Part shown: piece after piece, positions 1 through 39,739 of the stretch | Layout of the letters: each line of letters begins with the position of its first letter | How positions within the stretch are numbered: position 1 is the first letter of the stretch | Source: Haladaptatus halobius | GTDB lineage: Archaea > Halobacteriota > Halobacteria > Halobacteriales > Haladaptataceae | Reading direction: 5' to 3' | Length of the DNA stretch: 64,000 nt | NCBI RefSeq assembly: GCF_020618475.1 | Contig: NZ_CP085335.1 | Coordinates: 310,001 to 374,000, forward strand | The notes under the pieces: model-generated | What the model was told of the DNA's origin: nothing | What the model saw: only the letters and a program-made list of their open reading frames with translations | Databases searched by the model: none | Program-made: the position numbers and the translations under genes

Positions 1-84
1 CGATTTTGGCGCAGTTTCCGCGTCGAACGCAGACGTTACGACTCCTCGACAAAAACTATATGCTATCGAAGCTGACTATCAGCT

Positions 85-657
85 ATGTCTCTCGCCTCGC
101 TTGCTCGGCCTCGCCGAAGGATGGTGTTCCCGTTTGCCACCGTACTCTCCCCATGTCTGTGGTTCATCTATCGGGATGCGACGGTTACCGCAAGCGGTCG
201 CTCCGCGGCGAACGTTTTTCCGCAAGCGATCGCGTTCGCTGCTGGCGCAGTGATTCTGAGTTACGTCATTGCGACGGCGATAGCCGCGATAGCGGCCACG
301 GAGGAGCAGCCATTACCGAGGTGGAAACGATGGTTGTTTGCGCCGTCAAATCAGGTGATCGGGCTGTTCGCTTCGGTTGCGTTAGCGTTCGATATCTACA
401 TCGTCGCTGGAACGGTTCCACGGTGGTTCGACGTCGTGGCGGTTCCAGTGGGTGTCATCGTCGGGTGGCCACTGATGCTACTCGTCGTCGGTTCGATAGC
501 CGTCGTGAACGCGTTCGGACAGCAGTTCGCGGTGATCGAGTTCGTCGCGGTTGCGGTCGGCGTCGCCCTCTCGGTCGCGTGGTTGTTCCTCCTGTTCGGC
601 TGGCTCACGGATGCCGTCGGGCGGTTCGTCGGAACCGCGGTTTCGACGGACGAGTGA
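85..657 (+). CDS. Hypothetical multi-pass membrane protein
   Basis: I do not recognise the family. The 190-residue product is strongly hydrophobic, with about four or five likely membrane segments (roughly residues 13-30, 45-70, 88-108, 115-142 and 147-175) and a basic stretch near residues 78-84. An internal ATG at 121 (Met13) is an equally plausible start, because the first 12 residues are basic and atypical. It lies directly upstream of rps12, on the same strand, with a gap of about 200 bp that holds the rps12 promoter, so it is probably not co-transcribed. In many archaea nusA sits in this place; it is absent here. Confidence 0.6.
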   Translation: MSLASLARPRRRMVFPFATVLSPCLWFIYRDATVTASGRSAANVFPQAIAFAAGAVILSYVIATAIAAIAATEEQPLPRWKRWLFAPSNQVIGLFASVALAFDIYIVAGTVPRWFDVVAVPVGVIVGWPLMLLVVGSIAVVNAFGQQFAVIEFVAVAVGVALSVAWLFLLFGWLTDAVGRFVGTAVSTDE

Positions 658-826
658 CGACGGCCCACCGCTCGTTCGTCACAACGCCGAACGTTTCGGA
701 CGGAGACGAACGAGAACCGACGAACGAATCCATTGGCTCGGCTTAGAATCACTGCAACGCTCTCAAATCGCTTTATCGATCCCTTTCGAGCGACCTGCGG
801 GCGTTTCACCGAAATCAAAAGAGGAC

Positions 827-837
827 GCTTAAGTAGC
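827..837 (+). promoter_or_regulatory. Putative TATA box of rps12-rps7
   Basis: The AT-rich stretch CGCTTAAGTAG lies about 25-33 bp before the rps12 ATG, within GC-rich sequence. That spacing fits a short-leadered or leaderless haloarchaeal transcript. Assigned by position and composition only. Confidence 0.4.
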
Positions 838-859
838 TCCATCGGATAGTCCACGTCAT

Positions 860-1288
860 ATGGCGAACGGCAAGTATGCAGCTCGAAAGCTGAAGAAAGA
901 CCGCCAGAACCATCGGTGGTCTGACTCCGATTACGCCCGACGCGAGCGCGGTCTCGGGGAGAAATCCGATCCCCTCGAAGGCGCGCCACAGGGTCGAGGT
1001 ATCGTGCTGGAGAAAGTGGGCGTCGAAGCGAAACAGCCCAACTCCGCGATTCGAAAGTGCGTCCGCGTCCAGCTCATCAAGAACGGAAAGCAGGTCACGG
1101 CGTTCCTTCCCGGTGACGGTGCAATCTCGTTCATCGACGAGCACGACGAGGTCACCATCGCGGGAATCGGCGGTGCGAAGGGTCGCGCGATGGGCGACCT
1201 CTCCGCCGTCAACTACAAGGTAGAGAAAGTCAACGGCGTGAGCCTGCAGGAACTGGTTCGCGGGAACGCGGAGAAACCGGTGCGATAA
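860..1288 (+). CDS. rps12: Small ribosomal subunit protein S12 (uS12)
   Basis: Component of the 30S decoding centre. The 142-residue product has the archaeal/eukaryal form of S12: a basic N-terminus ([12 protein letters not shown]), then the highly conserved [20 protein letters not shown] block around residues 56-75 that includes the residues near the decoding site, followed by the conserved AFLPGDGA segment. Length is normal for archaeal S12. rps7 follows with a 2-bp gap, so the two are translationally close and very likely one operon. The start is fixed by the [11 protein letters not shown] beginning, typical of haloarchaea. Confidence 0.98.
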
Positions 1289-1290
1289 CC

Positions 1291-1908
1291 ATGTCGGCAG
1301 ACGAAGAACAACCGGAACCCGACTCGCACGTCGGCACGGAAGGCGAAGGCGCAGCGGCGAAGCTGTTCGGCACGTGGGACGTGACGGAAATAGAGTTCCG
1401 CGACCCGAGCACGGAGCGGTATATCTCGGTCACGCCCGTCGCGCACACGATGGGTCGCCACGCCGGAAAGCAGTTCCAGAAGAGCGAGGTCAGCATCGTC
1501 GAGCGCCTCATCAACCGTCTCATGCAGACGGAGGAGAACACGGGCAAGAAACAGCAGACGATGAAGATCGTCCGCGCTTCGTTCGACATCATCCACGACC
1601 GCACCGAGGAGAACCCGATACAGGTGCTCGTCCGCGCAGTCGAGAACGCCGCCCCGCGCGAGGAGACGGTTCGCCTGAAGTATGGCGGCATCTCCGTCCC
1701 GAAGGCGGTCGACGTCGCACCGCAGCGTCGCGTCGACCAGTCGCTCAAGTTCATCGCCGAGGGTGCCTACAGTGCCTCGTTCAAGTCCCCCACGGACGCC
1801 GAGGACGCGCTGGCCTCCCAGCTCATCGGCGCGGCGAACTACGACGTGCAGACCTACGCTATCAACCAGAAAGAAGAGAAAGAGCGCGTCGCCGCCGCGG
1901 CTCGCTAA
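1291..1908 (+). CDS. rps7: Small ribosomal subunit protein S7 (uS7)
   Basis: Head protein of the 30S subunit that nucleates assembly on the 3' domain of 16S rRNA. The 205-residue product has a haloarchaeal acidic N-terminal extension (about 20 residues), then the archaeal S7 body with [51 protein letters not shown] and a basic C-terminal helix. Starts 2 bp after rps12, in the universal S12-S7 order. Unlike the classical str operon, fusA does not follow directly: a 490-bp spacer and an opposite-strand gene intervene. Confidence 0.98.
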
Positions 1909-2406
1909 CGTCACCGACTCGAATCTCTCTGGGTTAGATTCATTCTTCTCTCGTTTGTCGGTCTCGTGGAGAGCGACTGGTTCGACAAGGGTTGGTTTCG
2001 GAAGGTTTCCAGGCGGTATCGTTCAGTACGACTCGGTAGAGAACGGTGGAAATCAGTACGTTTTGTCGAGGACGTTCTCGACCGCTCTGCTTGTGCCGAG
2101 TGAACCACTGTTGTCGTCTCGTCACGGAAAGCCCCGGACACTCACCCCGCCGGGCCAGACTCATTGCGCTCATCCACCGTCGGAGCTCGTCTCTTTGGTG
2201 GACTGAAAGGGCGAGGCGCGCGAGTCATGCGAACGAGGTGAGCGTGCCGCACGCCCGCGCAGCGACCGACGTGAGCGAGCAGGAACGGCTTCCGGTGGCG
2301 TAACCCACGAGGGCTTTCGGAGACGATTCCACTGTGGTTGCTTGTTCGTCACGTAGAAAACGCTAGCGAGTATTCCCAAATCCTCGAACCACCGCCGACA
2401 AAACCG
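1909..2406. other. Non-coding spacer after rps7 with a GC-rich dispersed-element-like block
   Basis: No credible gene is present; open frames here lack family features. The part near 2186-2335 has a composition I associate with recurring haloarchaeal intergenic elements: GGTGGACTGAAAGGGCGAGG at its left side, many CGAGCG/GAGCGAGC tracts, and GGGCTTTCGGAGACGATTCC at its right side. The remainder shows nothing recognisable. Recognition of the element is by memory of pattern and not by alignment. Confidence 0.35.
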
Positions 2407-3162
2407 CTAGTCCGCTGCTTGTCTTTCGTCGCCACCATCGAGGACGTACTCGCGCGCCGCACCGACCAACTCCTTCCGGTACTCGCTCTCGTCGGGGTCG
2501 TCGGCCAGCGAGAGGAACCGATACTTGAACCCCTGTACGTCCACCGTCGGCGCGTCGCGGGCCGCGGTGCGGGCGAGGTCGTAGAGGCGGTGGTCGCGTC
2601 CCACGAGGTCGTGGCGCTCGACCAGTGCGAGGGCGAAGGCGGCGTTGACGGCGGTCATCTCGGGGTCGGCGGTGGCGGTCGTTCGCCGACCGCGGGGGAA
2701 GGCCGGCCGATCCGCGACCGCGGCGGCGAGTTCGGATTCGAGGAAGGCGACGAGTTTATCGGTCGGGCCGACGCGCAGCGTGATGTCGTCGGCGTAGATG
2801 TCCTTCATGTGGTTGGCGATCTGGTAGCAGTGGGTGAGCTTTCGGCGCTCGACCGACCGTCCGGAGAACGCGAGGAACAGCGCCTCGGCGGTCGACTGCA
2901 TGTGCGAGGGGTGCGCCTGCTCGTGGCGGGCCATGTGCGAATACTCGTGGAGCGCGAGTTCGCGGGCCATCGCGCTGGTCGCTGCCTGTTCGGAGATGTT
3001 GAGGACGTGGTAGTCGCCGGGGTGGGCGGTCCACGTGCGCTCGTCCGGGTCGGAGCGAACGCGCACGCGGACGGGGCGGTCTAAGTCGTGCTCGGTTTCG
3101 AAGAGGTCGGATGCGCTGAGAAACGGGGTCGTCGGTGCGGCTCCTTGCACACGAATATCCAT
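2407..3162 (-). CDS. DUF5781 family protein, metalloprotease-like HExxH relative
   Basis: A conserved haloarchaeal protein of unknown biochemical role. The product, 251 residues from the ATG at 3162, begins MDIRVQGAAPTTPFLSASD, the usual start of this family; an upstream ATG at 3177 adds only five residues. Around residues 70-95 it carries LHEYSHMARHEQAHPSH. The H-E-x-x-H spacing matches the zinc-binding helix of metallopeptidases, with further His and Glu residues downstream that could be ligands. No signal peptide is visible, so any activity would be cytosolic. It lies between rps7 and fusA on the opposite strand, interrupting the str gene order. Confidence 0.8.
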   Translation of the reverse strand: MDIRVQGAAPTTPFLSASDLFETEHDLDRPVRVRVRSDPDERTWTAHPGDYHVLNISEQAATSAMARELALHEYSHMARHEQAHPSHMQSTAEALFLAFSGRSVERRKLTHCYQIANHMKDIYADDITLRVGPTDKLVAFLESELAAAVADRPAFPRGRRTTATADPEMTAVNAAFALALVERHDLVGRDHRLYDLARTAARDAPTVDVQGFKYRFLSLADDPDESEYRKELVGAAREYVLDGGDERQAAD

Positions 3163-3269
3163 GCGTGATGTTGTCACGGGTTGGACGGCTATTAGATTGC
3201 CGGTTGGAGCAATTCACCCGAGGTCGCTAACGGTCGGACGAACGGTGCAACGACCGCCAACCGACGAGG

Positions 3270-3277
3270 TTTTTATG
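3270..3277 (+). promoter_or_regulatory. Candidate TATA box for fusA
   Basis: TTTTTATG, about 105 bp before the fusA ATG, implies a leader of roughly 75-80 nt. A second weaker candidate, CTTTTCAA near 3343-3350, would give an almost leaderless transcript. I cannot decide between them. Confidence 0.35.
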
Positions 3278-3379
3278 CTCTATGTGACCGATTCGCAGGG
3301 AAACGCGGCGTTTCTCGACCGTTCGTGGGCGGGCAAAACACTACGCTTTTCAACCTCGTACAGGTAGGGATACCCATAT

Positions 3380-5569
3380 ATGGGCAGACGAAAGAAGATC
3401 GTCGAACAGTGCGAGCGGCTCATGGACAAGCCGGAACAGATCCGGAATATTGCCATCGCCGCACACATCGACCACGGTAAAACGACACTTACGGACAACC
3501 TCCTCGCTGGTGCCGGAATGATCTCCTCGGAGACTGCTGGTCACCAGCGCGCGATGGACACGGAAGAGGACGAGCAGGAACGCGGTATCACCATCGACGC
3601 CGCGAACGTCTCGATGACGCACAATTACGAGGACACCGACTACCTCATCAACCTCATCGACACCCCTGGCCACGTGGACTTCGGCGGGGACGTGACCCGC
3701 GCGATGCGCGCCGTCGACGGTGCGCTCGTGGTGGTCGACGCCGTCGAAGGGACGATGCCACAGACGGAGACCGTCCTGCGTCAGGCGCTCCGTGAGGGCG
3801 TCAAGCCGACCCTGTTCATCAACAAGGTCGACCGCCTCATCAACGAGCTACAGGAAGGACCGCAGGAGATGCAAGAGCGTCTCCAGAAGGTCATCCGCGA
3901 GGTGAACGAACTCATCCGCGGCATGGAAGAGGAGAAGTACGAGCAGGGCTGGAAGGTGTCCGTCGAGGACGGCACTGTCGCGTTCGGCTCCGCGCTGTAC
4001 AACTGGGCGGTGAGCCTCCCGTCGATGCAACAGACTGGCATCGACTTCGGCGATATCATCGAGCTGAACCGCCAGGGCGAGGAGGGAATCGAAGAGCTGA
4101 AAGATCGAACCCCGCTCTCGGACGTCGTGCTCGACATGGTCGCGGAGCACTTCCCGAACCCGCTCAACGCGCAGCCCGAGCGTATTCCGACCGTTTGGCG
4201 CGGTGACGACAGCACGCAGCTCGCGGAGGACATGCGACTCGTGAACGCGGACGGCGAGGTCGTCTTCATGGTCACGGACATCGGCATGGATCCGCACGCG
4301 GGCGAGATCGCCACGGGTCGGCTGTTCTCCGGCACCCTCGAAAAGGGCCAAGAGCTGTACGTCTCCGGTACGGCGGGCAAAAACCGCATCCAGAACGTCG
4401 GTATCTTCATGGGCGGCGAGCGCGAGGACGTGGAGCGCGTCCCCGCGGGGAACATCGCGTCCGTCACCGGCCTCCGAGATGCCATCGCCGGTTCCACCGT
4501 CTCCTCGGTCGAGATGACGCCGTTCGAGTCCATCGAACATATCTCGGAACCCGTCATCACGAAGTCCGTCGAGGCGAAGAGCATGGACGACCTGCCGAAG
4601 CTCATCGAGACGCTCCGACAGGTGTCCAAGGAAGACCCGACCATCCAGATCACCATCAACGAGGACACGGGCGAACACCTCATCAGCGGTCAGGGCGAAC
4701 TCCACCTCGAAGTCATCACCCAGCGTATCGAGCGCAATCAAGGTATCCCGGTGACGACCGGTGAACCCATCGTCGTCTACCGCGAGCAGGTTCAGGGCGG
4801 CACGGAGACCGTCGAAGGTATCTCGCCGAACCGCCACAACCGGTTCTACCTGACGGTCGAACCGCTCAACGACGAGATCGTCGAGAAGGTACGACTCGGC
4901 GACGTGTCGATGGACATGCCCGAGCAGGAGCGCCGCGAGGCCCTGCAGGAAGCCGGCATGGACAAAGACACCAGCCAGAACGTGGAACACATCCACGGGA
5001 CGAACATCCTCATCGACGACACGAAGGGTATCCAACACCTGAACGAGACGATGGAGCTCGTCATCGAGGGGTTAGAAGAGGCGCTCGACGACGGACCGCT
5101 CGCGGCCGAACCCGTGCAGGGGACGCTCATCCGCCTCAACGACGCCCGCCTCCACGAGGACACCATCCACCGTGGTCCGGCGCAGGTCATCCCCGCAGTT
5201 CGTCAGGCGGTTCACAGCGCGCTCATCCACGGTCACGTCAAACTCCTCGAACCGATCCAGAACGTCCGCATCGACGTGCCGAACGAGCACATGGGTGCCG
5301 CGTCTGGCGAGATTCAGGGCCGACGTGGTCGCGTGGACGACATGTATCAGGAGGGCGACCTCATGGTCGTCGAGGGTATCGCGCCGGTCGACGAGATGAT
5401 CGGATTCGCCAGCGACATCCGCTCCGCGACCGAGGGTCGCGCCTCGTGGAACACGGAGAACGCAGGCTTTCAGGTCATGGCCGACAATCTCCAGCGGGAG
5501 AAGATCATGGAGATCCGCGAACGCAAGGGTATGAAGCTGGAACTGCCGCAGGCCGTGGACTACTTCTAA
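3380..5569 (+). CDS. fusA: Translation elongation factor EF-2
   Basis: GTPase that translocates tRNA and mRNA on the ribosome. The 729-residue length is normal for archaeal EF-2. The G domain shows [10 protein letters not shown] near residues 29-38, the switch segment [24 protein letters not shown] and NKVDR. Domain IV carries [12 protein letters not shown]; the His in IHRG (about residue 597) is the position modified to diphthamide in archaea and eukaryotes. The start codon sits inside a perfect 12-bp palindrome, CCCATATATGGG (3373-3384). The gene is separated from rps7 and from tef1a by unrelated genes, so it has its own promoter. Confidence 0.98.
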
Positions 5570-5675
5570 GCGACACCGGTTGCTTTCTTTGCGGTTTCTT
5601 CCGCTAGAAGCGCCCGAGACGAGTCGCTCCGTTTCGATTCGGCACGACCGGAACAGTGACTGCTACGGATGTGTT

Positions 5676-5846
5676 TTATCGTTCACCCCGATGGACGATT
5701 CTTGCGTCGCACATCGGGCAGACCTCCTCTCGGCTGTCGAAGGCCGTCTGGCAGAACGCACAGACGTGGTTCGTCTCCGCACCGGTACTTCCCGCGCCGA
5801 CCGCATCAGTGAATCGCATCTCTGTCACCTGACTTCCCGGTTCCAT
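5676..5846 (-). CDS. Small zinc-finger protein (CPxC-type), 56 residues
   Basis: A short minus-strand gene in the gap between fusA and the ACT-protein gene. From the ATG at 5846 the product begins MEPGSQVTEMRFTDAVGAGS; a second in-frame ATG at 5819 gives 47 residues. The body carries CAFC, then 11 residues, then CPMC, followed by a short basic tail ending at TAA. Two C-x2-C knuckles in under 60 residues is the layout of the very small zinc-finger proteins that are abundant in haloarchaea. The two knuckles are ideally spaced to bind one zinc ion. Function unknown; some haloarchaeal members affect motility, biofilm or stress, but nothing here assigns a role. It is opposite in direction to both neighbours. 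Confidence 0.7.
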   Translation of the reverse strand: MEPGSQVTEMRFTDAVGAGSTGAETNHVCAFCQTAFDSREEVCPMCDARIVHRGER

Positions 5847-5903
5847 CTCCAGCGGTATTACTACGCGCTCGTTAACACACCGTGTAGTGTCTGACTAACT
5901 CTC

Positions 5904-5940
5904 GTTGCAGACGGTTGTGCTCCCGTTGCATCACGTTGCA
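5904..5940. promoter_or_regulatory. Three direct GTTGCA repeats upstream of ACT-hom operon
   Basis: Identical hexamers GTTGCA start at 5904, 5925 and 5935, that is 21 and 10 bp apart, so all three face the same side of the helix. They end 36 bp before the TTTATT box of the operon. This looks like an operator or activator array; the binding protein is unknown. Confidence 0.45.
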
Positions 5941-5976
5941 ACCTCCGGAACGGAGAATTTTGTAACCGACTGAAGC

Positions 5977-5982
5977 TTTATT
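5977..5982 (+). promoter_or_regulatory. TATA box of ACT-hom operon
   Basis: TTTATT within GAAGCTTTATTGTCG, 27-32 bp before the ATG at 6009, consistent with a leaderless or nearly leaderless haloarchaeal transcript. Confidence 0.55.
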
Positions 5983-6008
5983 GTCGCCCGCGCTCGAATC
6001 CTGCTACC

Positions 6009-6548
6009 ATGACCGACCACGGCGACGGACGGGTGCAGGCGTACACGGTTCGGCTGGAACTGGCCGACGAACCGGGTGAACTGCTCCGCGCCCTCGAACC
6101 CATCGCCGATTCCGGTGGAAATCTGCTCAGCGTCTTCCACGAACGCGGGTCACTCACGCCGCGCGGCCACATCCCGGTCGAGGTGGACTTGGAGTGTCCC
6201 CCGGATCGCTTCGACACCATCGTCTCCGCACTCCGCGAGGGGAGCGTGAACGTCGTCCGCGCCGGGGCAGAGCGATACGACGAGGAGATAACCGTCATCC
6301 TCACCGGCCACATCATCGACACCGACATCTCCGATACTCTCTCGCGGATCACGACCGAGGCGCGCACGTCGGTCGTCGACATCTCGCTTTCGGCTCCGGA
6401 AGGGACGAGCGACGTGTCCAGCGCGCGACTCCGACTCGCCACCGATTCGACGGAGACGGTTCACGTCATCGACACCGTGAACGGCATCGCCGACGAGAAA
6501 GGATTGACGGTCATCGAACCGCTGACCGACAGGGAGGGCGGCGTATGA
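6009..6548 (+). CDS. ACT-domain amino-acid-binding regulatory protein
   Basis: The 179-residue product starts with a typical ACT ligand-binding fold: YTVRLELADEPGELLRALEPIADSGGNLLSVFHERG (the beta strand-Pro-Gly-helix signature around residues 10-45), and a second half that may form a second ACT-like unit (VILTGHIIDTDISDTLSRITTEA). It has no catalytic domain. Its stop overlaps the start of hom (ATGA at 6545-6548), so the pair is translationally coupled. In haloarchaea this ACT protein habitually accompanies homoserine dehydrogenase, so it probably senses threonine, methionine or another end product and controls the branch point; the ligand is inference. Confidence 0.88.
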   Translation: MTDHGDGRVQAYTVRLELADEPGELLRALEPIADSGGNLLSVFHERGSLTPRGHIPVEVDLECPPDRFDTIVSALREGSVNVVRAGAERYDEEITVILTGHIIDTDISDTLSRITTEARTSVVDISLSAPEGTSDVSSARLRLATDSTETVHVIDTVNGIADEKGLTVIEPLTDREGGV

Positions 6549-7495
6549 GGCTCGCAGTGCTCGGCGCGGGTGCCGTCGGCCGCTCGGTCGCCGAACTCGC
6601 CGGGGAGTACGGCCACACGGTGACGGCTCTCGCCGATTCCGAAAGCGCAGTCGTAGACGCCGCAGGAATCGATATCGAATCCGTTTTCGCCCGCAAGAAC
6701 AGCGAGGGTCGCGTCGGTTCGCTCGACCCGGACGCCGCGCTCGTAAGCGAGTACGACGCGTTGGTCGAGGCGACCCCGACGACGCTCGGCGACGCGCGAC
6801 CGGGGTTCGAGCACGCGCGCGAGGCACTCCGCGCCGACCGGCACGTCGTACTGGCGAACAAGGGGCCGGTCGCCGAACGCTACCGGGAGTTGCGAGCGCT
6901 CGAACGGGAGAGCGAGGGTCGCGTGCAGTTCGAAGCGACCGTCGGCGGCGCGATACCCGTGCTCTCGACTATCACGGACATCGGCGCGAAAAACGTCACC
7001 GCGGTTCGTGGCGTGCTGAACGGCACCGCGAACTTCGTCCTCTCGCGGATGGCCGCGGAGGGGCTCAGCTACGAGCACGTGCTCGCGGAGGCCCAAGATC
7101 TCGGCGTGGCGGAGGCCGACCCGTCGTTCGACGTGGACGGGACCGACGCCGCGCTGAAGTGCGTCATCCTCGCCAACGTCCTCTTCGACGGCGAGTACAC
7201 CCTCGCCGACGCCGAGGTCGCCGGTATCCGGGACCTCCCGGGGAGCGCACTCGAACTGGCCGCCGAGGACGGCCGAACGATTCGCCTCGTCGGCGAAGTC
7301 GCGCGCGACGGCGTCCGGGTCGGTCCGCGTCTCGTCCCCGAACACGGCACGCTCGCGGTGTCCGGCACGCGAAACATCGTCCAGTTCGAGACGGAGCACG
7401 CCGGACGACTCAACATCAGCGGGCGCGGTGCGGGCGGCCCCGAGACGGCGACCGCCGTGCTGTCGGACGTGACGCGATTGGAACGCGAGGAGTAG
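6545..7495 (+). CDS. hom: Homoserine dehydrogenase
   Basis: Reduces aspartate semialdehyde to homoserine with NAD(P)H, the branch step to threonine and methionine. The 316-residue product begins MRLAVLGAGAVGRSVAELA (Rossmann G-x-G-x-x-G, residues 6-11), continues with ANKGPVAERY, the catalytic-domain motif GGAIPVLSTI, the GVLNGTANFVLSRM segment and DVDGTDAALK (Asp and Lys of the active site). The length is short because the regulatory ACT domain that many homologues carry at the C-terminus is missing; it is supplied by the separate upstream gene, with which it overlaps by 4 bp. The ATG at 6545 was chosen because an earlier in-frame start would run through the upstream gene. Confidence 0.93.
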   Translation: MRLAVLGAGAVGRSVAELAGEYGHTVTALADSESAVVDAAGIDIESVFARKNSEGRVGSLDPDAALVSEYDALVEATPTTLGDARPGFEHAREALRADRHVVLANKGPVAERYRELRALERESEGRVQFEATVGGAIPVLSTITDIGAKNVTAVRGVLNGTANFVLSRMAAEGLSYEHVLAEAQDLGVAEADPSFDVDGTDAALKCVILANVLFDGEYTLADAEVAGIRDLPGSALELAAEDGRTIRLVGEVARDGVRVGPRLVPEHGTLAVSGTRNIVQFETEHAGRLNISGRGAGGPETATAVLSDVTRLEREE

Positions 7496-7575
7496 CCCGC
7501 CACCAGACACGCCATAGCGTGTCACGTGTTCCCACTAACCGCCAGACGGCGGCGAGATAGCCTGCATGACGTATC

Positions 7576-7588
7576 GAAATGGTTTTAA
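7576..7588 (+). promoter_or_regulatory. BRE/TATA promoter of tef1a-rps10
   Basis: CGAAAT-GGTTTTAA resembles a B-recognition element plus TATA box. It is about 51 bp before the tef1a ATG, predicting a leader of roughly 25 nt. This shows tef1a has its own promoter after hom. Confidence 0.5.
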
Positions 7589-7638
7589 CCGCTTCTGCCA
7601 AATAAATCCGACAGAGCGCATCTGCGCGTGAGATACCA

Positions 7639-8904
7639 ATGAGCGACAAACCACACCAGAACTTGGCCGTCATCGGCCACGTCGACCACGGCAAGAGTAC
7701 GATGGTCGGGCGACTCCTCTTCGAGACGGGGAGCGTCCCGGAGCACGTCATCGAACAGCACCGCGAAGAAGCGGAAGAGAAGGGTAAGGGCGGCTTCGAG
7801 TTCGCCTACGTGATGGACAACCTCGCCGAGGAGCGCGAGCGCGGCGTCACCATCGACATCGCCCACCAGGAGTTCGACACCGACGAGTACTACTTCACCA
7901 TCGTCGACTGTCCGGGCCACCGCGACTTCGTGAAGAACATGATCACGGGCGCGAGCCAAGCCGACAACGCGGTGCTCGTCGTCGCCGCCGACGACGGTGT
8001 CGCGCCGCAGACCCAGGAGCACGTCTTCCTCTCGAAGACACTGGGCATCAACGAGCTCATCATCGCGGTCAACAAGATGGACGTCGTCGACTACGACGAA
8101 GAGAAGTACAACGACGTGAAAGAGCAGGTCTCGAAGCTCCTGAAGCAGGTCAACTTCAAGTCCGACGACGCGACGTTCGTCCCCACCTCGGCGTTCGAGG
8201 GCGACAACGTCTCCGAGCGCTCGGACAACACGTCCTGGTACGACGGACCGACGCTGCTCGAGGCTCTCAACAACCTCGAAGCGCCGGAACCGCCGACGGA
8301 CGCAGACCTCCGCCTGCCGATTCAGGACGTCTATACCATCTCCGGTATCGGAACCGTCCCGGTCGGACGTATCGAGACGGGGACCCTGAATACGGGCGAC
8401 AACGTCTCCTTCCAACCGAGCGACGTCGGTGGCGAGGTCAAGACCATCGAGATGCACCACGAAGAGGTACCGAAGGCGGAACCCGGCGACAACGTCGGTT
8501 TCAACGTTCGCGGAATCGGTAAGGATGACATCCGTCGCGGTGACGTCTGTGGTCCGGCGGACGACCCGCCGAAGGTCGCCGACACGTTCACGGCCCGGAT
8601 CGTCGTGATGCAACACCCCAGCGTGATCACGGCGGGCTACACGCCGGTCTTCCACGCCCACACCGCGCAGGTCGCCTGCACCATCGAATCCATCGACGCG
8701 AAGATCAACCCGTCCACCGGTGAGGTCTCCGAGGAGAACCCGGACTTCATCAAGTCCGGCGACGCAGCGAAGGTTACGGTTCGACCGCAAAAGCCGCTCA
8801 GCATCGAGCCGGCTGGCGAAATTCCGGAACTCGGATCCTTCGCTATTCGTGACATGGGCCAGACCGTCGCGGCCGGTCAAGTCCTCGAAGTCAACGAGAA
8901 GTAA
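7639..8904 (+). CDS. tef1a: Translation elongation factor EF-1-alpha
   Basis: GTPase that delivers aminoacyl-tRNA to the ribosomal A site. The 421-residue product has GHVDHGKST (residues 14-22), the switch segment [36 protein letters not shown], and the C-terminal beta-barrels with [15 protein letters not shown] and [22 protein letters not shown]. Length matches archaeal EF-1-alpha. rps10 follows after a 3-bp gap, the standard archaeal tuf-S10 pair. Confidence 0.98.
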
Positions 8905-8907
8905 ACG

Positions 8908-9216
8908 ATGCAGCAAGCACGAGTCCGACTCGCAGGAGCCAACCCCGGCGACCTTGACGATATCTGCGACGATGTCCGAGAGATTGCCGAGAAGACCGGC
9001 GTCTCCCTGAGTGGTCCGATTCCGCTCCCGACAAAGACGCTGGAGATTCCCACACGCAAGTCGCCCGACGGAGAGGGCACCGCAACGTGGGAGCACTGGG
9101 AGATGCGCGTCCACAAGCGCCTCATCGACCTCGACGCGGACGAGCGCGCGCTTCGACAGCTGATGCGCATCCAGGTTCCGAACGACGTGAGCATCGAAAT
9201 CGTTCTCGAAGACTAA
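8908..9216 (+). CDS. rps10: Small ribosomal subunit protein S10 (uS10)
   Basis: Protein of the 30S head. 102 residues, normal length. Recognisable blocks are [20 protein letters not shown] at the N-terminus, [46 protein letters not shown] in the middle, and [19 protein letters not shown] at the end. Co-transcribed with tef1a (3-bp gap). A T5 run at 9287-9291 may end the transcript. Confidence 0.98.
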
Positions 9217-9316
9217 GCGACGAACATCGTCTGCCGCCACTTATCTATCCGTTTTCTCGCCTCAACCAGCGACGGCGTCGGGTCGATTTTTGTAGCTCCG
9301 GCGAACAGTAGTTAGT

Positions 9317-9931
9317 ATGCGACTCTCGCGCTCCCCGACGATACAGACGCTCGCCGTCTTCCTCGTCGTGTTCGCCCTCCAGTCGGCGTTGCGGTTCGTC
9401 AGCCCGCTTCTCGCGGCGAGTCTGTTCGTTCTCGCTCCGCCCGTGGCGGTGCGCCCGTGGACGCTTCCGCTGAGCGTCTACGCCCACGCCAACGTCCCGC
9501 ACCTCATCTCGAACGCCATCGCCCTGCTGTTCGCCGGGCTGTTGGTCGAGCGCGTGACGACGACCCTCCGATTCCATGCCTACTTCCTGGCGATCGGGAT
9601 GCTGGCCGGGGTGGCGCAGGTGTGGGTGACGGGGCTGTTCTCGCCAACAGCTCCGGCCGTCCTCGGAGCCAGCGGCGCCGTGTTTGGCCTGTTCGGCTAC
9701 CTGCTCGCGGGCAATCCGGTCGCCGACGCGGTGCTCGGTCGCCTCCGCCTCTCCCGCCGGGCGCAGATCGCGGTGGTGTTCGTCCTCGCCTTCCTCGCGA
9801 CCGCGACGACCGCCGCCCCAGGCGTGGCGCTCGTCGCCCATTTCACCGGCTTCGCCGTCGGGCTTTTCGCGGGACGACTTCACATCCTCCGCACCGAAAC
9901 ACAAGCTACAAATAACGACCGTCCGGTATAA
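9317..9931 (+). CDS. Rhomboid-family intramembrane serine protease
   Basis: Cleaves transmembrane substrates within the lipid bilayer. The 204-residue product has about six membrane segments. The nucleophile motif is GASGAVFGLFGY with Ser at about residue 119; the partner His (about residue 175) is in VAHFTGFAVGLFAGR, followed by the helix-packing G-x-x-x-G. HANVPHLISNAIALLF matches the rhomboid segment whose His and Asn form the oxyanion hole. All active-site residues are present, so it should be active. Substrate unknown. It is followed within 10 bp by tRNA-Ala on the same strand. Confidence 0.88.
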   Translation: MRLSRSPTIQTLAVFLVVFALQSALRFVSPLLAASLFVLAPPVAVRPWTLPLSVYAHANVPHLISNAIALLFAGLLVERVTTTLRFHAYFLAIGMLAGVAQVWVTGLFSPTAPAVLGASGAVFGLFGYLLAGNPVADAVLGRLRLSRRAQIAVVFVLAFLATATTAAPGVALVAHFTGFAVGLFAGRLHILRTETQATNNDRPV

Positions 9932-9939
9932 TAGACCGA

Positions 9940-10011
9940 GGGCTCGTAGATCAGTGGCAGATCGCTTCCTTCGCAAGGAAGAGGCCCCGGGTTCAAATCC
10001 CGGCGAGTCCA
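9940..10011 (+). tRNA. tRNA-Ala (anticodon CGC)
   Basis: A 72-nt cloverleaf without intron. The acceptor stem GGGCTCG pairs with CGAGTCC and contains the G3-U70 wobble that specifies alanine; the discriminator base is A. The D arm starts TAGATCAGTGGCAGA, the anticodon stem is CTTCC/GGAAG around loop TTCGCAA, giving anticodon CGC (codon GCG), and the T arm is CCGGGTTCAAATCCCGG. CCA is not encoded. Confidence 0.97.
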
Positions 10012-10046
10012 CTTTCTTCCGCTTCGTTTCACTTCGCTCCAGTCAG

Positions 10047-10100
10047 TGGACTCGCCTACCTTCGCAAACGAACCGCGTTTGCTCAATCCCGGCGAGTCCA
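10047..10100 (+). repeat. Hairpin element repeating the tRNA-Ala 3' end
   Basis: The last 16 nt of the tRNA, AATCCCGGCGAGTCCA (9996-10011), recur exactly at 10085-10100. The copy closes a nested hairpin: TGGACTCGCC (10047-10056) pairs with GGCGAGTCCA (10091-10100), and GCAAACG (10064-10070) pairs with CGTTTGC (10076-10082). It may be a remnant of a tRNA-targeted integration, or a processing or regulatory structure of the tRNA trailer. No integrase gene is nearby. Confidence 0.6.
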
Positions 10101-10101
10101 T

Positions 10102-10321
10102 TCAACCTTTTACGACGGTCAGCGACGGCGTCGGCAGCTGACGCCGTCGCTGACGCTTCCCTATGAAAGGTTGATCAAAAGCACTCCTTACCTCCTTCCG
10201 TCGCTCACTCGGAAGAGCTTCGCTCTTCCTCGCTCGCTTCGTCGGGGGTTCGTCGCCCCGGAAAATCTTCGATTTTCCGAAGAGTAAACTAGCCTCCGCC
10301 GGTTGTGCCACCTGCCTATCG
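10102..10321. repeat. Dispersed hairpin element, copy A
   Basis: A block of stacked inverted repeats. Outer arms TCAACCTTT (10102-10110) and AAAGGTTGA (10166-10174) enclose a perfect 15-bp stem (10118-10132 with 10140-10154, loop GGCAGCT). Further perfect hairpins follow: GGAAGAGC/GCTCTTCC (10211-10229) and CGGAAAATC/GATTTTCCG (10259-10279). The right end resembles TAGCCTCCGCCGGTTGTGCC. A second diverged copy is at 31206-31370. No coding function is evident; open frames across it are by-products of the repeats. Confidence 0.7.
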
Positions 10322-10758
10322 TTCACTCCGTTCGCTTCTAGTGTGAAACGACTCCACCTTCTCACACCCCCGTTCTCGAACCCTTCCATCGACCCAAAAC
10401 CTGTCAGCTATCTTCCTCTCTACCACCGTTTCAGAGACCGAAACCCGACTCACACCCGTTTGAACCGCAACCCCCACGGAATTCCAGCACTGACAAAGAC
10501 CACCGTTTCACACAGTTTTACCCGTCTTCGGCTCAATTATTCGGAATATAATGAAGGGGGTAGCAGTGTTTTGACCAAGTACGCCCGGAGCCCGGGTGTG
10601 ACAGACCTGGCAGTGTTCGACGTTGCCGGAGGCTCTGGTGGCGAGCTGGCCTCTCGCCGAGTTTCGGCCAAGCCTCCCACGAAAGTTTGTCGTCTCGGAC
10701 GACTGCCGACTTTTTCGAATGGAATCGCGCCGGAGAATCGTAGTTTCGATAAAGAGCC
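10322..10758. other. Spacer before Lrp gene; candidate structured RNA region
   Basis: No convincing protein gene. Positions 10322-10540 show nothing recognisable. From about 10541 an AT-rich stretch (AATTATTCGGAATATAATG) could serve as a promoter, followed by GC-rich sequence rich in short inverted repeats, for example GTCGTC-TCG-GACGAC near 10693, and CCGGAGCCCGGG near 10589. It lacks the signature motifs of SRP RNA and RNase P RNA. It may be the leader of the Lrp gene or an independent small RNA. Confidence 0.3.
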
Positions 10759-11235
10759 ATGAGCCAGGATACACTCGATGAGGTTGACCGCGGCATCCTT
10801 CACTTGCTCCAGCAGGACGCTCGCAACACGACGACGACCGAGATGGGCGAGGCAGTCGGCGTCTCCGCTAGCACGGTCGGAAATCGGCTCCAGCGACTGG
10901 AGAACGAGGGAATCGTTAAGGGGTATCACCCGCAAATCGACTACCACGAGGCGGACTTCCCGCTCCGCGTTCTCTTCGTCTGTACCGCGCCGATTCCGGA
11001 GCGCGAGGAACTCGCGGAACGTGCGCTCGAAGCGAACGGCGTGGTGAACGTCAAGGAGATTATGGCGGGCGTCGAAAACGTCCACGTCGAGGCGGTGGCG
11101 AGGGATCGAGACAACATGGTCGCCATCGGGAGATCGCTCGACGACGCCGGATTAGACGTGATGAACGAGATGTTGGTGAAGGACGAACACGTACAACCGT
11201 TTGACCACTTCGGAGACGGAGCGACCGACGAGTAG
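10759..11235 (+). CDS. Lrp/AsnC family transcriptional regulator
   Basis: DNA-binding regulator responding to amino acids. The 158-residue product begins with the Lrp winged-helix domain, DEVDRGILHLLQQDARNTTTTEMGEAVGVSASTVGNRLQRLENEGIVKGYHPQIDY (residues 5-60), followed by a ligand-binding ACT-like (RAM) domain, with VFVCTAPIPEREELAERALEANGVVNVKEIMAGVENVHVEAVARD and a C-terminal MLVKDEHVQPFDHF. Length is typical. It stands alone after a long repeat-rich spacer, so targets cannot be read from context; autoregulation is common in the family. Confidence 0.92.
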   Translation: MSQDTLDEVDRGILHLLQQDARNTTTTEMGEAVGVSASTVGNRLQRLENEGIVKGYHPQIDYHEADFPLRVLFVCTAPIPEREELAERALEANGVVNVKEIMAGVENVHVEAVARDRDNMVAIGRSLDDAGLDVMNEMLVKDEHVQPFDHFGDGATDE

Positions 11236-11311
11236 TCTCCTCGTAGGAATTCATTCGAAATCCGGAAAATACTAGGTTCAGAATCGGATTCGGACATATT
11301 TATCCGGTATG

Positions 11312-11316
11312 TTTAT
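11312..11316 (+). promoter_or_regulatory. TATA-like element upstream of HalOD1 gene
   Basis: TTTAT about 32-36 bp before the ATG at 11348, with a second similar stretch (CATATTTATCC) at 11295-11305. Either could be the promoter. Confidence 0.35.
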
Positions 11317-11347
11317 CAATTGTTGAATCCATTGGGTCGATACCGTA

Positions 11348-11653
11348 ATGGAACGCACTTCCTACTGTCTGCAGGACAGCGAAACCCCGTCTATCGCCGT
11401 CGTCAATGCGATTGCAGAGCACGAGGAGGCGTCGCCCGACGACATCGGGCAACAGTTGTACGATGTTATCGATCCGGATGCGCTCGATGCGCTCTTTCGC
11501 CCGCGAACGGACGGAAAATCGCGGAGCGATGGCAACGCGGTCTTCACCTACCACGGCCACCGCATAACGTACCGGAGCGACGGTTGGGTGTACGTGACCG
11601 ACGACACAGACGCTCCCTCGGGAGCGTCCGAAAAGAAGCCCGCAGACGAGTGA
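11348..11653 (+). CDS. HalOD1 output-domain protein
   Basis: A 101-residue protein consisting almost entirely of the halobacterial output domain 1. Diagnostic features are AVVNAIAEHEEASPDDIGQQLYDVIDPDALDALF (residues 17-50), then a beta-rich half with VFTYHGHRITYRSDGWVYV. The domain is widespread in haloarchaea, sometimes fused to sensor kinases or response regulators and often single as here; its molecular function is not established. Convergent with the next gene, the two stops being adjacent. Confidence 0.85.
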   Translation: MERTSYCLQDSETPSIAVVNAIAEHEEASPDDIGQQLYDVIDPDALDALFRPRTDGKSRSDGNAVFTYHGHRITYRSDGWVYVTDDTDAPSGASEKKPADE

Positions 11654-12295
11654 TCACGCGAGTGCTGTGAGTTCAGCATCGATAGCGGCGACGTACTCCG
11701 CCCGGTCGTAGCCGAGTCGTTCTCGCCAGATGTTCTCGTACGACGGGTGTAAGAGCGGAAGAAGCGTCACGTCGAGCCGCTCGCACTCGACGGGCGAGAG
11801 AACCCGGTCGAGAAACCCGTCGAGCGGAATCGACTCGAAATCGAGAATGGCCTCCGTGGCGTGTTTCCCCGTCGAAACGACGACGGCGGGACGCACCCGT
11901 TCTATCTCCGTTCGCAAATGGGAGAAACATCGGTCGAGTTCCTCGCGTCGAGGCTCCCGGTTCGACCCGTCGTCGCCCTCCGGAAAGCACTTTACGGCGT
12001 TCGTGAAGTAGGCGTCGTACCCCAGTTCGTCGAACAGCGCGCGAACCTTCCGCCCCGAGTGACGAGACGTGTACGCCATCCCCGTCCAGTTGCCGCCCCG
12101 CCACCGCTCCGCGTCGGGATTTCCCGCGCTGGGCGCTTCGCCGACGACCATCACGTCTGCATTCGACGACCCGTTTCCCCACGAGATGCGGTTCCTGCAC
12201 GCGGCGAGGTCGGGACAGCGCGAGCAGTCCGGTTCGAGGACGTTCCGCGAGTCGGGGTCTGGAAAGCTGGGCATTCGTCCGTTAGACACGCTCAC
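11654..12295 (-). CDS. Uracil-DNA glycosylase superfamily protein
   Basis: The 213-residue product resembles the iron-sulfur-type uracil-DNA glycosylases (families 4/5) that remove uracil from DNA. Near the N-terminus is DCSRCPDLAACRNR (C-x2-C-x5-C), consistent with cluster ligands. It is followed by motif A, VVGEAPSAGNPDAERWRGGNWTG, the conserved NAVKCFP segment, and the C-terminal HPSYENIWRERLGY, whose His corresponds to the second active-site motif. The exact family and whether it acts on uracil cannot be settled by eye. It overlaps the upstream exoribonuclease gene by 4 bp, suggesting co-transcription. Confidence 0.82.
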   Translation of the reverse strand: MSVSNGRMPSFPDPDSRNVLEPDCSRCPDLAACRNRISWGNGSSNADVMVVGEAPSAGNPDAERWRGGNWTGMAYTSRHSGRKVRALFDELGYDAYFTNAVKCFPEGDDGSNREPRREELDRCFSHLRTEIERVRPAVVVSTGKHATEAILDFESIPLDGFLDRVLSPVECERLDVTLLPLLHPSYENIWRERLGYDRAEYVAAIDAELTALA

Positions 12296-35798: not shown

Positions 35799-37226
35799 GT
35801 GTCCCGACGAGCCGAGAGCCGCGTCGATATGACCGACGGCCCCGTCACGCCGAAACTGATGAGCCTCGCGTGGCCGTTAGTCGTCGGAAACCTCCTCCAG
35901 ACGTTCTACAATATCACAGACATGTTCTGGGTTGGGCAGGTTAACACCGCCGCCGTCGCCGCCGTCTCGCTCATGTTTCCGACGTCGTGGCTGTTCGTCT
36001 CGCTGGCGATGGGACTCACTGCGTCGTCGGTCGCGCTCGTCTCACAGCACGTCGGCGCTGGCGACGACCGGGCCGCGGACAACATCGTCGCGCAGACGAC
36101 GCTGCTCACCGTTCTCGTCGGCGTCGTCCTCGCGTCGCTCGGCTACGCCTTTCGGCACCCACTACTCTCGCTCGTCGGCGCTGAGGGTGCGGTGTACCGC
36201 GAGGCGCTCCAGTACATCGAGGTGCTCTTCTTTTCCATCCCGTTCACGTTCCTCTTCTTCGTCTTCCGCGCCGTCCTCCGCGGCGCGGGCGACACCAAAA
36301 CCGCGATGTGGCTGATGGTGCTCTCGGCGGGTTTGAACGTCGTTCTCGATCCACTTCTCATCCTCGGATACGGCCCGTTCACCGCCATGGGAACTCGCGG
36401 CGCGGCGGTCGCCACGCTCGTCGCTCGCGTGTTCGCGGCCGCCGTCGGCGTCTACGTGCTCCTACGCGGCGATTGGGGTATCCAACTTCGGCTCGACGAT
36501 TTGCGCCCGGACTGGCCGGTATTGAAGAAACTCGTCACCGTCGGCTCCCCGGCGACCGTCGACGGCGCGGCCCGGAGTTTCGCCGCCGTGGCGATGGCCG
36601 CGCTGGTCGCCCGATTCGGACCGGTTCCCACCGCCGCGTACGGTATCGGCGTCCGGATGATGTCCGTCTCGTGGACCATCTCGGGCGCGGTCGGACAGGC
36701 CGCCGCGACGGGCGTCGGCCAGAACCTCGGCGCGGAGACGCCCGAGAGGGCCGCCGAAGTGACGTGGAAAGCGACCGTCGGCACGCTGGGCGTGCTCTTC
36801 GCCGCCGGCGGGTTGATGGTCGCGTTCCCCGCCGCGGGGGTACGGGTGTTCACGAACGATCCGGCGGTGGTCGCGGAAGGCGTCGACTTCCTCTACGTCA
36901 TCGGCCCGTTTCTGGCCTTCTTCGGCGGTCTGATGGTGATTCAGGGCGGTTTCCGCGGTGCTGGCGACACCGGCGTCGCGATGTCGCTTTCGTTCCTCTC
37001 GCGCTGGGTGCTCCGCATCCCCATCGCGCTCCTGCTCGCCTACCAGTGGACTCTGTCGCTCGGGCCGGTCGTCGTCTCGGGGCTTGCGTGGGGCGTCGGC
37101 GGTCTCTGGTGGGCGTGGTCGATTTCGGCCATCGGATCGTTCGTCGTGGGCGCGCTCTGGTTCAGCCTCGGTCGCTGGCGACGGGGCGTGTTGGACGAAG
37201 AACGCAAACCGACGACCGCGGACTGA
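35799..37226 (+). CDS. MATE family multidrug efflux transporter (first copy)
   Basis: 475 residues from a GTG start at 35799; an ATG at 35829 (MTDGPVTPKLMSLAWPLVVGN) is an equally good start. Twelve membrane segments are visible, with the internal two-fold repeat of MATE proteins: LAWPLVVGNLLQTFYNITDMFWVGQV in the first half and TVGSPATVDGAARSFAAVAMAALVARFGPVPTAAYGIGVRM in the second, plus FRAVLRGAGDTKTA and QGGFRGAGDTGVAM at equivalent positions. Exports cationic or lipophilic compounds using an ion gradient, probably Na+ in this host. A paralogue lies at 47314-48726. Confidence 0.9.
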   Translation: MSRRAESRVDMTDGPVTPKLMSLAWPLVVGNLLQTFYNITDMFWVGQVNTAAVAAVSLMFPTSWLFVSLAMGLTASSVALVSQHVGAGDDRAADNIVAQTTLLTVLVGVVLASLGYAFRHPLLSLVGAEGAVYREALQYIEVLFFSIPFTFLFFVFRAVLRGAGDTKTAMWLMVLSAGLNVVLDPLLILGYGPFTAMGTRGAAVATLVARVFAAAVGVYVLLRGDWGIQLRLDDLRPDWPVLKKLVTVGSPATVDGAARSFAAVAMAALVARFGPVPTAAYGIGVRMMSVSWTISGAVGQAAATGVGQNLGAETPERAAEVTWKATVGTLGVLFAAGGLMVAFPAAGVRVFTNDPAVVAEGVDFLYVIGPFLAFFGGLMVIQGGFRGAGDTGVAMSLSFLSRWVLRIPIALLLAYQWTLSLGPVVVSGLAWGVGGLWWAWSISAIGSFVVGALWFSLGRWRRGVLDEERKPTTAD

Positions 37227-37292: not shown

Positions 37293-38003
37293 CTACGCGT
37301 AGGTGAGGTACCGCTCAACCGACCAGCCCCAGACGTTGCGGTCGAGCCAGTGGACGCCCCACCACGTGTAGCCGTCCTCGGTCGTCGGCCCGTTCATGAT
37401 CTCGCCGACCTCACCGGGGGAGACCGTGGCGACGACCGGCGACTCCGTCCCGGGCTGTTCCCGCGTGTTCAGATTGGCGGTCGGCGTGACTCGGTCGCCA
37501 TCGACGAAGCCCCCACCGCCGCCACCGCCGTAGGCATCGCGGTAGTACGCCGCGGCGTTCTTCACGTCGTTGACGTACGCCCAACTGTGGTTGTAGGCGT
37601 ACAGCGCACTATCCCAGTCCTCGGGCGCGCCCGAGGCCGTGAGGTAGTTGGCGGCGGACGGAATCGCGTCCTGGTAGTCGCAGATGTTCGCGTACCCGTC
37701 GCCGTCGCCGTCGAGACCGTAGGCGTCCCACGTCGAGGGCATGAACTGCATCGGCCCTTTTGCTCCCGCCGACGACGTGTCACAGCCTGCCTCGTACTGG
37801 CCGTGTTGGGTCTCTATCCAGCCGATGCCGGCGAGATATGTCCAGTCCAGTCCCCAGTTCGAACCCGTGTCGCGGTACTCTGCGAGGTAGTGTGACGGGA
37901 TGGAACCGGGCGCGGCGGCGGCGGAGCCCGACAGCCCCGAAACCGCAACCGCCGTCGTTCCTGCCGCACCGAGCTTCTTGAGCATGTCGCGTCTTGATTG
38001 CAT
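37293..38003 (-). CDS. Tat-exported lytic-transglycosylase-like protein with SH3b-type tail
   Basis: 236 residues. A twin-arginine signal, MQSRRDMLKKLGAAGTTAVA..., ends near the AAAAP at 29-32. Residues 34-155 form a transglycosylase-like lysozyme domain: YLAGIGWIETQHGQYEAG with the probable catalytic Glu at about 64, SSAGAKGPMQFMPSTWDAYG, a DGDGDGYANICDYQDAI loop that looks calcium-binding, SAANYLTASG and DSALYAYNHSWAYVNDV. All these are standard for bacterial murein lytic transglycosylases. A Gly-run linker (159-165) leads to an SH3b-like wall-binding domain (NLNTREQPGTESPVVATVSPGEVGEI). Haloarchaea have no murein, so the target is probably bacterial. An AT-rich promoter region lies at 38027-38065. 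Confidence 0.85.
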   Translation of the reverse strand: MQSRRDMLKKLGAAGTTAVAVSGLSGSAAAAPGSIPSHYLAEYRDTGSNWGLDWTYLAGIGWIETQHGQYEAGCDTSSAGAKGPMQFMPSTWDAYGLDGDGDGYANICDYQDAIPSAANYLTASGAPEDWDSALYAYNHSWAYVNDVKNAAAYYRDAYGGGGGGGFVDGDRVTPTANLNTREQPGTESPVVATVSPGEVGEIMNGPTTEDGYTWWGVHWLDRNVWGWSVERYLTYA

Positions 38004-38221
38004 GATACATTTATCACGACATAGCACGCGTTAATATAATTTTCTACAAATAATATTAATAAATCAACCACTGCTGTCGGTCGAACCCCGTCTTGAAGAC
38101 GGATGAGAGTGCTTCGGCTATTAGACGGGAGAAGGCACGCTTCTGAGCACGCAATCGGGAACGGAGCGCATCTTCGAGTGGGTCGCGGTGCCGTTGGGTG
38201 CCGACCTTCAGGCGACGCTGA
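38004..38221. other. AT-rich promoter region and GC-rich spacer before gatB 3' end
   Basis: The stretch 38027-38065 (TTAATATAATTTTC and ATAATATTAATAAATC) is far more AT-rich than the surroundings and probably carries the promoter of the minus-strand transglycosylase-like gene. CCGTCTTGAAGACGG at 38088-38102 is a perfect short inverted repeat; it could be a terminator hairpin or a trace of an insertion-sequence end. No gene recognised. Confidence 0.4.
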
Positions 38222-39739
38222 TCACTCGTCCAATCGCTCGCGGAGCATCCCGTTCACGCTACCGGGATCTGCGCTTCCGCCGGTCTTCTGCATGACCTGC
38301 CCGACGAGGAAGTTGATGGCACCGCCCTCTCCGGCGTGGTAGTCCTCGACCGTGTCCGGGTTTTCGTCGATGGCCGCCTCGACCGCCCGCTCGACTTCGC
38401 CCGTGTCGGCCTTGCCGAGGCCCTCGCGCTCGATGACGGTTTCGGGGTCGTCGCTCTCGTCCAACATCTGGCGGAGAACCGTCTCTTCCGCGTTCTTGAC
38501 CGTGATATCGTCCTCGGCGACGAGACGGATGAGGGTCGTGAATTCGCCCAGTCGACCCTCCACGTCCGTGATCTCCATGTCGCGGTAGTTGAGTTCGCCA
38601 AGCAGGTTGTCGGCAACCCACGTCGCGGCGAGGTCGGAGTCGAACTCCTCGGCAACGTCCTCGTAGAAGTCCGCGACCTGCTTGCTCGACGTGAGTTTGC
38701 TCGCGGCTTCCGCGCTCAGCCCGTACTCCTCGCGGAAGCGTTCGCGGCGGGCGTCCGGCAGTTCTGGAATTGCCACCGTCTCCTTCCAGTCGCTCACCCG
38801 TAGCGGCGGGATGTCCGCCTCGGCGAAGTACCGGTAGTCCTTCTCCGCCTCCTTCGAGCGCATCGAGACTGTCGAACCGTGCGTCTCGTTGAAGTGGCGC
38901 GTCTCTTGTTCGACCGCCTTCCCCCGCCTGATGAGGTTGCGCTGGCGGCTCTCCTCGTAGGCGAGCGCGCTCTCCGCGCCCTTGTGACTGGAGATGTTCT
39001 TCACCTCCGTTCGGTTCGCGTCCGCGCGCACGTCCTCCGAGATGGTGCCGTCCTCGTCCACGTCCTCGGCGGGGACGATGGAGAGATTCGCGTCCACACG
39101 CAGGCTGCCGTCCCGCGTCGAGTCGAAGACGCCGAGGTACTCCAGCACCTCCTCGAGTTTCTCCAGGAAGGAGACCACCTCGCCGGGTTCGCGAAAGTCG
39201 GGTTCCGTGACGATCTCCATCAGGGGCGTCCCGGCGCGGTTGTAGTTGACGAGCGTATAATCCGCGCGGTCGATGCCGACGGTTCGCGTCTCGATGTCGC
39301 CGCTCCCGTCGCGGACGTGGCGGAGGCTGCCGGGGTCTTCTTCGAGGTGGGCGCGGTGGATGCCGACGGTTCGCGTCTCGCCCTCGTGGCGGAACTCCAA
39401 CTCCCCGTCCTGACAGATGGGGGCGTCGTACTGGGTTATCTGGAATCCCTTCGGCAGGTCGGGGTAGAAGTAGTTCTTCCGGTGGAAGCGCGTCTCCTCG
39501 GGGATGTTGGCGTCGATGGCCTTCCCGACCTTGACGGCGTACTCGACGGCGGCCTCGTTCAGCACCGGGAGCGACCCCGGAAGCCCGAGACAGACCGGGC
39601 AGGTGTAGGTGTTCGGCTCCGCGTCGTCTTGCTCCGTCGAACAGCCGCAGAAGATCTTCGTGTCCGTCTCCAGTTGGACGTGTATCTCGAGGCCGATGAC
39701 GGCCACGAGTTCGCCCTCCTGAACAGCCTGAGCGGTCAT
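38222..39739 (-). CDS. gatB: Aspartyl/glutamyl-tRNA amidotransferase subunit B
   Basis: Part of the GatCAB complex that converts Asp-tRNA(Asn) (or Glu-tRNA(Gln)) to the amide form. The 505-residue product has IGLEIHVQLETDTKIFCGCS, YTCPVCLGLPGSLPVLN (the C-x-C...C-x2-C zinc site), FHRKNYFYPDLPKGFQITQYD, and YTLVNYNRAGTPLMEIVTEPD. The C-terminal helical tail (QVMQKTGGSADPGSVNGMLRERL) is the YqeY-like tRNA-binding part. A phrase of about ten residues, ETRTVGI-x-RA, occurs twice near residues 121 and 150. GatA and GatC are not in the window. Confidence 0.95.
   Translation of the reverse strand: MTAQAVQEGELVAVIGLEIHVQLETDTKIFCGCSTEQDDAEPNTYTCPVCLGLPGSLPVLNEAAVEYAVKVGKAIDANIPEETRFHRKNYFYPDLPKGFQITQYDAPICQDGELEFRHEGETRTVGIHRAHLEEDPGSLRHVRDGSGDIETRTVGIDRADYTLVNYNRAGTPLMEIVTEPDFREPGEVVSFLEKLEEVLEYLGVFDSTRDGSLRVDANLSIVPAEDVDEDGTISEDVRADANRTEVKNISSHKGAESALAYEESRQRNLIRRGKAVEQETRHFNETHGSTVSMRSKEAEKDYRYFAEADIPPLRVSDWKETVAIPELPDARRERFREEYGLSAEAASKLTSSKQVADFYEDVAEEFDSDLAATWVADNLLGELNYRDMEITDVEGRLGEFTTLIRLVAEDDITVKNAEETVLRQMLDESDDPETVIEREGLGKADTGEVERAVEAAIDENPDTVEDYHAGEGGAINFLVGQVMQKTGGSADPGSVNGMLRERLDE

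Follow-up and report, generated by a model that had tools for sequence, protein, structure and literature searches.

A putative Tat-exported lytic transglycosylase with an SH3b tail in Haladaptatus halobius, and its possible role in a haloarchaeal peptidoglycan-utilisation system

The stretch of Haladaptatus halobius DNA analysed here (64,000 nucleotides, hereafter the window) encodes a protein that is very likely a secreted lytic transglycosylase (LT) acting on bacterial murein; its activity, the formation of anhydro ends and its export are inferred from its sequence. We suggest that it belongs to a whole haloarchaeal peptidoglycan-utilisation system devoted to feeding, a reading that we favour by a modest margin and in which activity, substrate, uptake and feeding are all inferred. 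In this proposal, the LT would be exported via Tat, anchored to the bacterial wall by its SH3b tail, and would cut the glycan strands with release of 1,6-anhydro-muropeptides. Together with a secreted amidase and an M23 peptidase (and, in relatives, a glucosaminidase), which have one SH3b module in common, it would dissolve murein outside the cell. The fragments would then be brought in by an oligopeptide-type ABC importer and processed inside the cell by NagZ, NamZ, an AmiE-like hydrolase and AnmK, a type of kinase acting on the product typical of LTs. The same activity may also lyse live bacteria. What has been shown by computation are the domains, the conserved catalytic residues, the shared tail, the operon and fusion links, and the AnmK cluster with its conservation.

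The open reading frame occupies positions 37293-38003 on the minus strand, with the ATG start at 38003, and encodes 236 aa. A preliminary description, made from the letters of the window, had claimed this frame, without its strand, as an exported murein LT-like enzyme with a Tat signal, a complete LT-type domain with probable catalytic Glu64, a DGDGDG loop and an SH3b-like tail; the frame was confirmed exactly, and the four parts held with the reservations given below. The Tat-type signal peptide (residues 1-31, 37911-38003) shows the layout SRRDMLKK, a hydrophobic stretch and then AAA-AP, with cutting after AAA predicted by eye. The claim rests on this motif and on the RR pair, invariant in 12 orthologs, while the profile score is borderline (TIGR01409, 16.2 bits, just under the 16.7 cut-off). 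There follow, on the same strand, a minimal SLT/LT catalytic domain (residues 33-158, 37530-37907), a poly-Gly linker (37509-37529) and the SH3b tail (residues 166-234, 37302-37508). A TATA-like element, TTATATTAA (38031-38039, minus strand), was inferred by eye, its centre ~31 nt upstream of the ATG. The gene is flanked by one for a MATE-type efflux protein (35799-37226, plus strand) and by gatB (38222-39739, minus strand), both named by eye and conserved in position.

The identity of the catalytic domain was supported by profile matches, alignment and a fold model. Two Pfam cut-offs were met (SLT_2, 52.5 bits against 24.3; SLT, 27.5 against 21.3), and the top phmmer match to the protein was E. 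coli Slt35 (1.4e-7). In an alignment of archaeal and bacterial domains, Glu64 (codon 37812-37814), the Gln of QFMP and the Asn of YN were each invariant in 93/93 sequences. The EF-hand-like, calcium-type loop D98-D109 (DGDGDGYANICD, 37677-37712), which contains DGDGDG, aligns with 'DFSGDGHINLWD' of Slt35, in which a structure has shown an EF-hand-type site. The protein shares this loop and the GA-GQFMPS motif with MltB/Slt35 (GH103), but covers only profile positions 147-200 of 292, and membership of MltB (TIGR02282/GH103) was rejected at an equivalog score of 42.7 bits against a cut-off of 281.4. An AlphaFold model built on a 54-row diverse alignment reached a pLDDT of 82, with block values mostly of 84-98 in both domains, whereas an alignment of 12 near-identical orthologs gave only 36. 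The preliminary description had proposed structure prediction with a fold search as a check and a mutated catalytic Glu as a refutation: lytic transglycosylases made up 47 of the 50 PDB fold matches listed for the predicted model (the exceptions were a T7 core protein, a complex of goose-type lysozyme and a YrvJ-YacD model), and the Glu, as seen above, is intact. It could still be argued that the protein is catalytically dead and merely binds the wall. Nothing speaks in favour of this beyond the absence of an assay, and the invariance of Glu64 and of the motif residues, with a dN/dS of about 0.14, makes it very unlikely.

The tail is less easily recognised by profiles. Measured against the definition of modular archaeal peptidoglycan hydrolases (PGHs) in PMC12352652, the protein meets the catalytic part, and its tail scores 15.8 bits with SH3_3, below the gathering score of 27 bits; the tail of a relative (L021), 37% identical to it, scores 55 bits. 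In a fold comparison with viral proteins, the matches included LTs to the N-terminal domain of the model and SH3b proteins to its tail (1.8-2.9 A), and we conclude that the tail is predicted to have the SH3b fold; its binding to murein is an inference. Another explanation is that the gene is an endolysin or a prophage remnant; in its favour, virion-associated LTs and endolysins are among the PHROG matches. Against it, no sequence relative was found among the viral contigs or phage records searched, and the chromosomal flanks are conserved, so that this origin can be all but discarded.

A secreted LT in an archaeon without a wall of the bacterial type poses the question of its target. No PBP transpeptidase gene was found in the H. 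halobius genome by a search in which 10 bacterial controls were positive and, therefore, the target is not the organism's own wall. Near-copies of the tail occur in the same genome on a Tat-Amidase_2-SH3b protein (94% aa identity) and on a Tat-SH3b-M23 protein (85%), and in relatives the tail is also fused to a glucosaminidase. Moreover, the genes themselves are linked. A Halocatena genome (G297) carries in tandem, on one strand and with gaps of 37 and 17 bp, genes for Tat-SLT-SH3b, Tat-SH3b-M23 and Tat-SH3b-Amidase_2 proteins; the SLT-M23 gene pair recurs in two other Halocatena genomes, and in one genome of another family SLT, SH3b and M23 are fused in a single 412-aa frame. In a further genome (G230) a parallel operon has a glucosaminidase in first place instead of the SLT. 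Murein would be the common target of the LT, M23, amidase and glucosaminidase chemistries, an inference made from sequence alone.

Alternatively, the substrate could be another beta-1,4-linked amino-sugar polymer, such as chitin or a bacterial or archaeal exopolysaccharide. The tail family is in fact not confined to murein enzymes, since a Halorussus GH18-type chitinase, named by eye (L022), bears two related SH3b copies, and a GH18 gene lies within the AnmK cluster of H. halobius. On the other hand, the same tail is common to Amidase_2, M23 and LT proteins, and the first two cut peptide parts that are absent from chitin; we thus consider a non-murein substrate unlikely. The bacterial murein target named in the preliminary description is supported, as far as an inferred activity can be, by the lack of a transpeptidase and by the fusion and operon links to amidase and M23.

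Another 11 genomes of the family have full-length orthologs with 80-93% identity, the carriers being 8/9 Haladaptatus genomes (its own included) and 4 Halorussus genomes. These orthologs, together with a dN/dS of 0.13-0.15 in the LT catalytic domain, which indicates purifying selection, show that the frame is not due to chance. In each of the five genomes of Haladaptatus and Halorussus set against the window, the LT gene is flanked by gatB and MATE. Across the class, the focal type of LT occurs in 8/392 sampled members, with Halocatena and one further genus among the carriers; there it lacks the neighbour genes seen in the window, and one copy is plasmid-borne.

The nearest bacterial relatives found were from Actinomycetota, beside which the archaeal LT domains form one group in the tree (99/95). 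The donor phylogeny proposed in the preliminary description could thus be taken up to this point; the exact donor was not resolved, as the bacterial side of the tree came from a motif scan of limited coverage and is motif-biased. The SLT proteins of Rubrobacter and Streptosporangiales have the same minimal LT domain, 46-59% identical and with the same motifs, but those examined bear other N- or C-terminal parts. By contrast, the archaeal LTs are distinguished by an acidic composition (D+E 14.3% and K+R 3.6% in the catalytic domains, against 8.4% and 9.5% in the bacterial relatives), the Tat signal, the SH3b tail and two conserved Cys. The view that the gene is not a recent unaltered import, also advanced in the preliminary description, is supported by synteny, acidic composition and purifying selection. 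As to the two Cys, C74 (37782-37784) lies in a short insertion and C108 (37680-37682) within the calcium-type loop; both are invariant in the archaeal LT orthologs compared, and a disulfide between them is possible.

The intracellular part of the proposed system is a gene cluster on contig C3 of H. halobius (802000-816114, L191), which is conserved and runs AnmK, HAD, AmiE-like, an unknown protein, NamZ, NagZ, creatininase, GH18 and IclR, and continues at 1-12000 (L200) with an SDR and an SBP_bac_5 (oligopeptide-type) ABC importer. Since the cluster spans the contig ends, C3 is perhaps a circular replicon. AnmK met the equivalog cut-off (NF007148, 448 bits against 387), as did NagZ (231 against 207); the N and C domains of NamZ scored 266 and 165 bits, and the AmiE-like member is a beta-lactamase-fold hydrolase. 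Haladaptatus, Halorussus, Halocatena and a further genus share the order of the cluster, with SDR and importer. By eye, no signal peptide was seen on NamZ, NagZ and AnmK, which suggests an imported substrate. The genome is, at 7.28 Mb and with an estimated contamination of 9.5%, unusually large for a haloarchaeon.

The link between secreted enzymes and cluster is physical only through the partners of the LT, as the LT gene was never adjacent to the cluster in the genomes examined. In G297 a gene for a secreted glucosaminidase-SH3b protein lies beside the cluster (L201), and in two other genomes (G027 and G099) a Tat-Amidase_2 gene is inside or beside it. AnmK and the LT also co-occur, AnmK being found in 4/8 genomes with the LT against 12/384 of the others (p = 1e-4; genus level, p = 0.006; family, p = 0.009). 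Within Halorussus alone the association is not significant (p = 0.57) and is thus partly due to shared ancestry, and AnmK clusters are also present in haloarchaea without the LT.

Two features of the cluster call for caution. Compared with solved structures, the haloarchaeal AnmK matched levoglucosan kinase (279 bits) better than AnmK (202 bits). Furthermore, a search of the H. halobius genome for MurQ, the MurNAc-6P etherase, returned only partial matches under the cut-off, which leaves a gap in the pathway. In Bacillus subtilis there is an operon murQ-murR-murP-amiE-nagZ-namZ; as in the archaeal cluster, it brings together NagZ, NamZ and a beta-lactamase-fold hydrolase, whereas the archaeal one additionally has AnmK, HAD, SDR and the SBP_bac_5 ABC importer, without a MurQ having been found. 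A bolder reading, that the peptidoglycan-eating system is complete with an unidentified enzyme in the place of MurQ, leaves us evenly divided. The unknown member of the cluster, a 400-aa protein without Pfam or NCBIfam match (L191:8722-9924, minus strand), is present in nearly every AnmK cluster examined and could be a candidate new enzyme of MurNAc metabolism.

Antibacterial murein hydrolases of Archaea have been described (PMC12352652, 2025), namely Woldo (M23-PG_binding_1) and Danwoldo (glucosaminidase-PG_binding_1) of Halogranum salarium. The preliminary description had asked for a comparison of domain combinations with such enzymes. Like these, the LT is, as predicted from its sequence, a Tat-exported murein hydrolase of a haloarchaeon with a putative wall-binding module, and in both groups the catalytic domains are swapped around a shared binder. 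It differs in that its catalytic domain is of the lytic transglycosylase type, rather than M23 or glucosaminidase, that its binder is a divergent SH3b scoring under the Pfam gathering value, and that operon and fusion links and an AnmK cluster come in addition. The main text of PMC12352652 does not contain the word 'transglycosylase', and no account of an archaeon feeding on murein turned up in the open-licence literature searched. Within that literature, both an LT among such hydrolases and the catabolic cluster seem to be new.

These precedents make it possible that the enzyme set is only a weapon, killing competing bacteria in the brine, and that the AnmK cluster serves scavenging independently of it. 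In favour of this, the Tat-signal PGHs of Halogranum kill Halalkalibacterium halodurans (PMC12352652), and the patchy presence of the LT (8/392 genomes), the plasmid copy and the breakage of 5/10 of the M23 and Amidase_2 genes of H. halobius resemble the gain-and-loss pattern reported there. Against it, the AnmK/NamZ/NagZ cluster has comparable secreted murein hydrolases among or next to its genes, and the focal gene is held stably at one chromosomal locus across the family. The preliminary description had left attack and nutrition as alternatives; the AnmK, NamZ, NagZ and ABC importer cluster tilts the choice toward nutrition, without excluding attack, and the killing of bacteria could be the chief function or come in addition.

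If the feeding system is real, Archaea devoid of murein would be consumers of bacterial walls, beyond occasional poisoners, and a secreted enzyme set would be linked to an intracellular catabolic route. The purpose of archaeal murein hydrolases becomes directly testable in culturable genera, with salt-tolerant wall-degrading enzymes and an alternative to MurQ as possible gains.

The SH3b module itself was found on various proteins in 47/392 genomes and 19/86 genera. When ten SH3b proteins were scanned with SH3_3, all but one long multi-SH3b protein were below the gathering value or unscored, and a search at that value would thus miss the group; the threshold of the 2025 survey is not stated in the relevant section of PMC12352652. 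Tails group by enzyme type in several genomes, above all in Halorussus, but a single tail clade per enzyme type was rejected by AU tests for SLT (p 3e-5), M23 (5e-4) and amidase (4e-5). Moreover, at third positions the focal tail has more in common with the paralogs of its own genome (0.84 and 0.88) than with the ortholog of the sister species (0.78), in a comparison that is small (67 sites per pair). These two results suggest tail exchange or gene conversion among these genes, at least in some lineages. In H. halobius, six M23 and four Amidase_2 matches were over the cut-off; five such genes, on contig C1 (L141-L145), are interrupted by stops or frameshifts, due to decay or assembly error, and one interrupted paralog resembles Woldo (M23-PG_binding_1) and has just one TAG in frame. 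Finally, in another genome (G204) an 871-aa frame (L189:3699-6314, minus strand) combines an alpha/beta hydrolase (DUF900), Amidase_2 and several SH3b copies.
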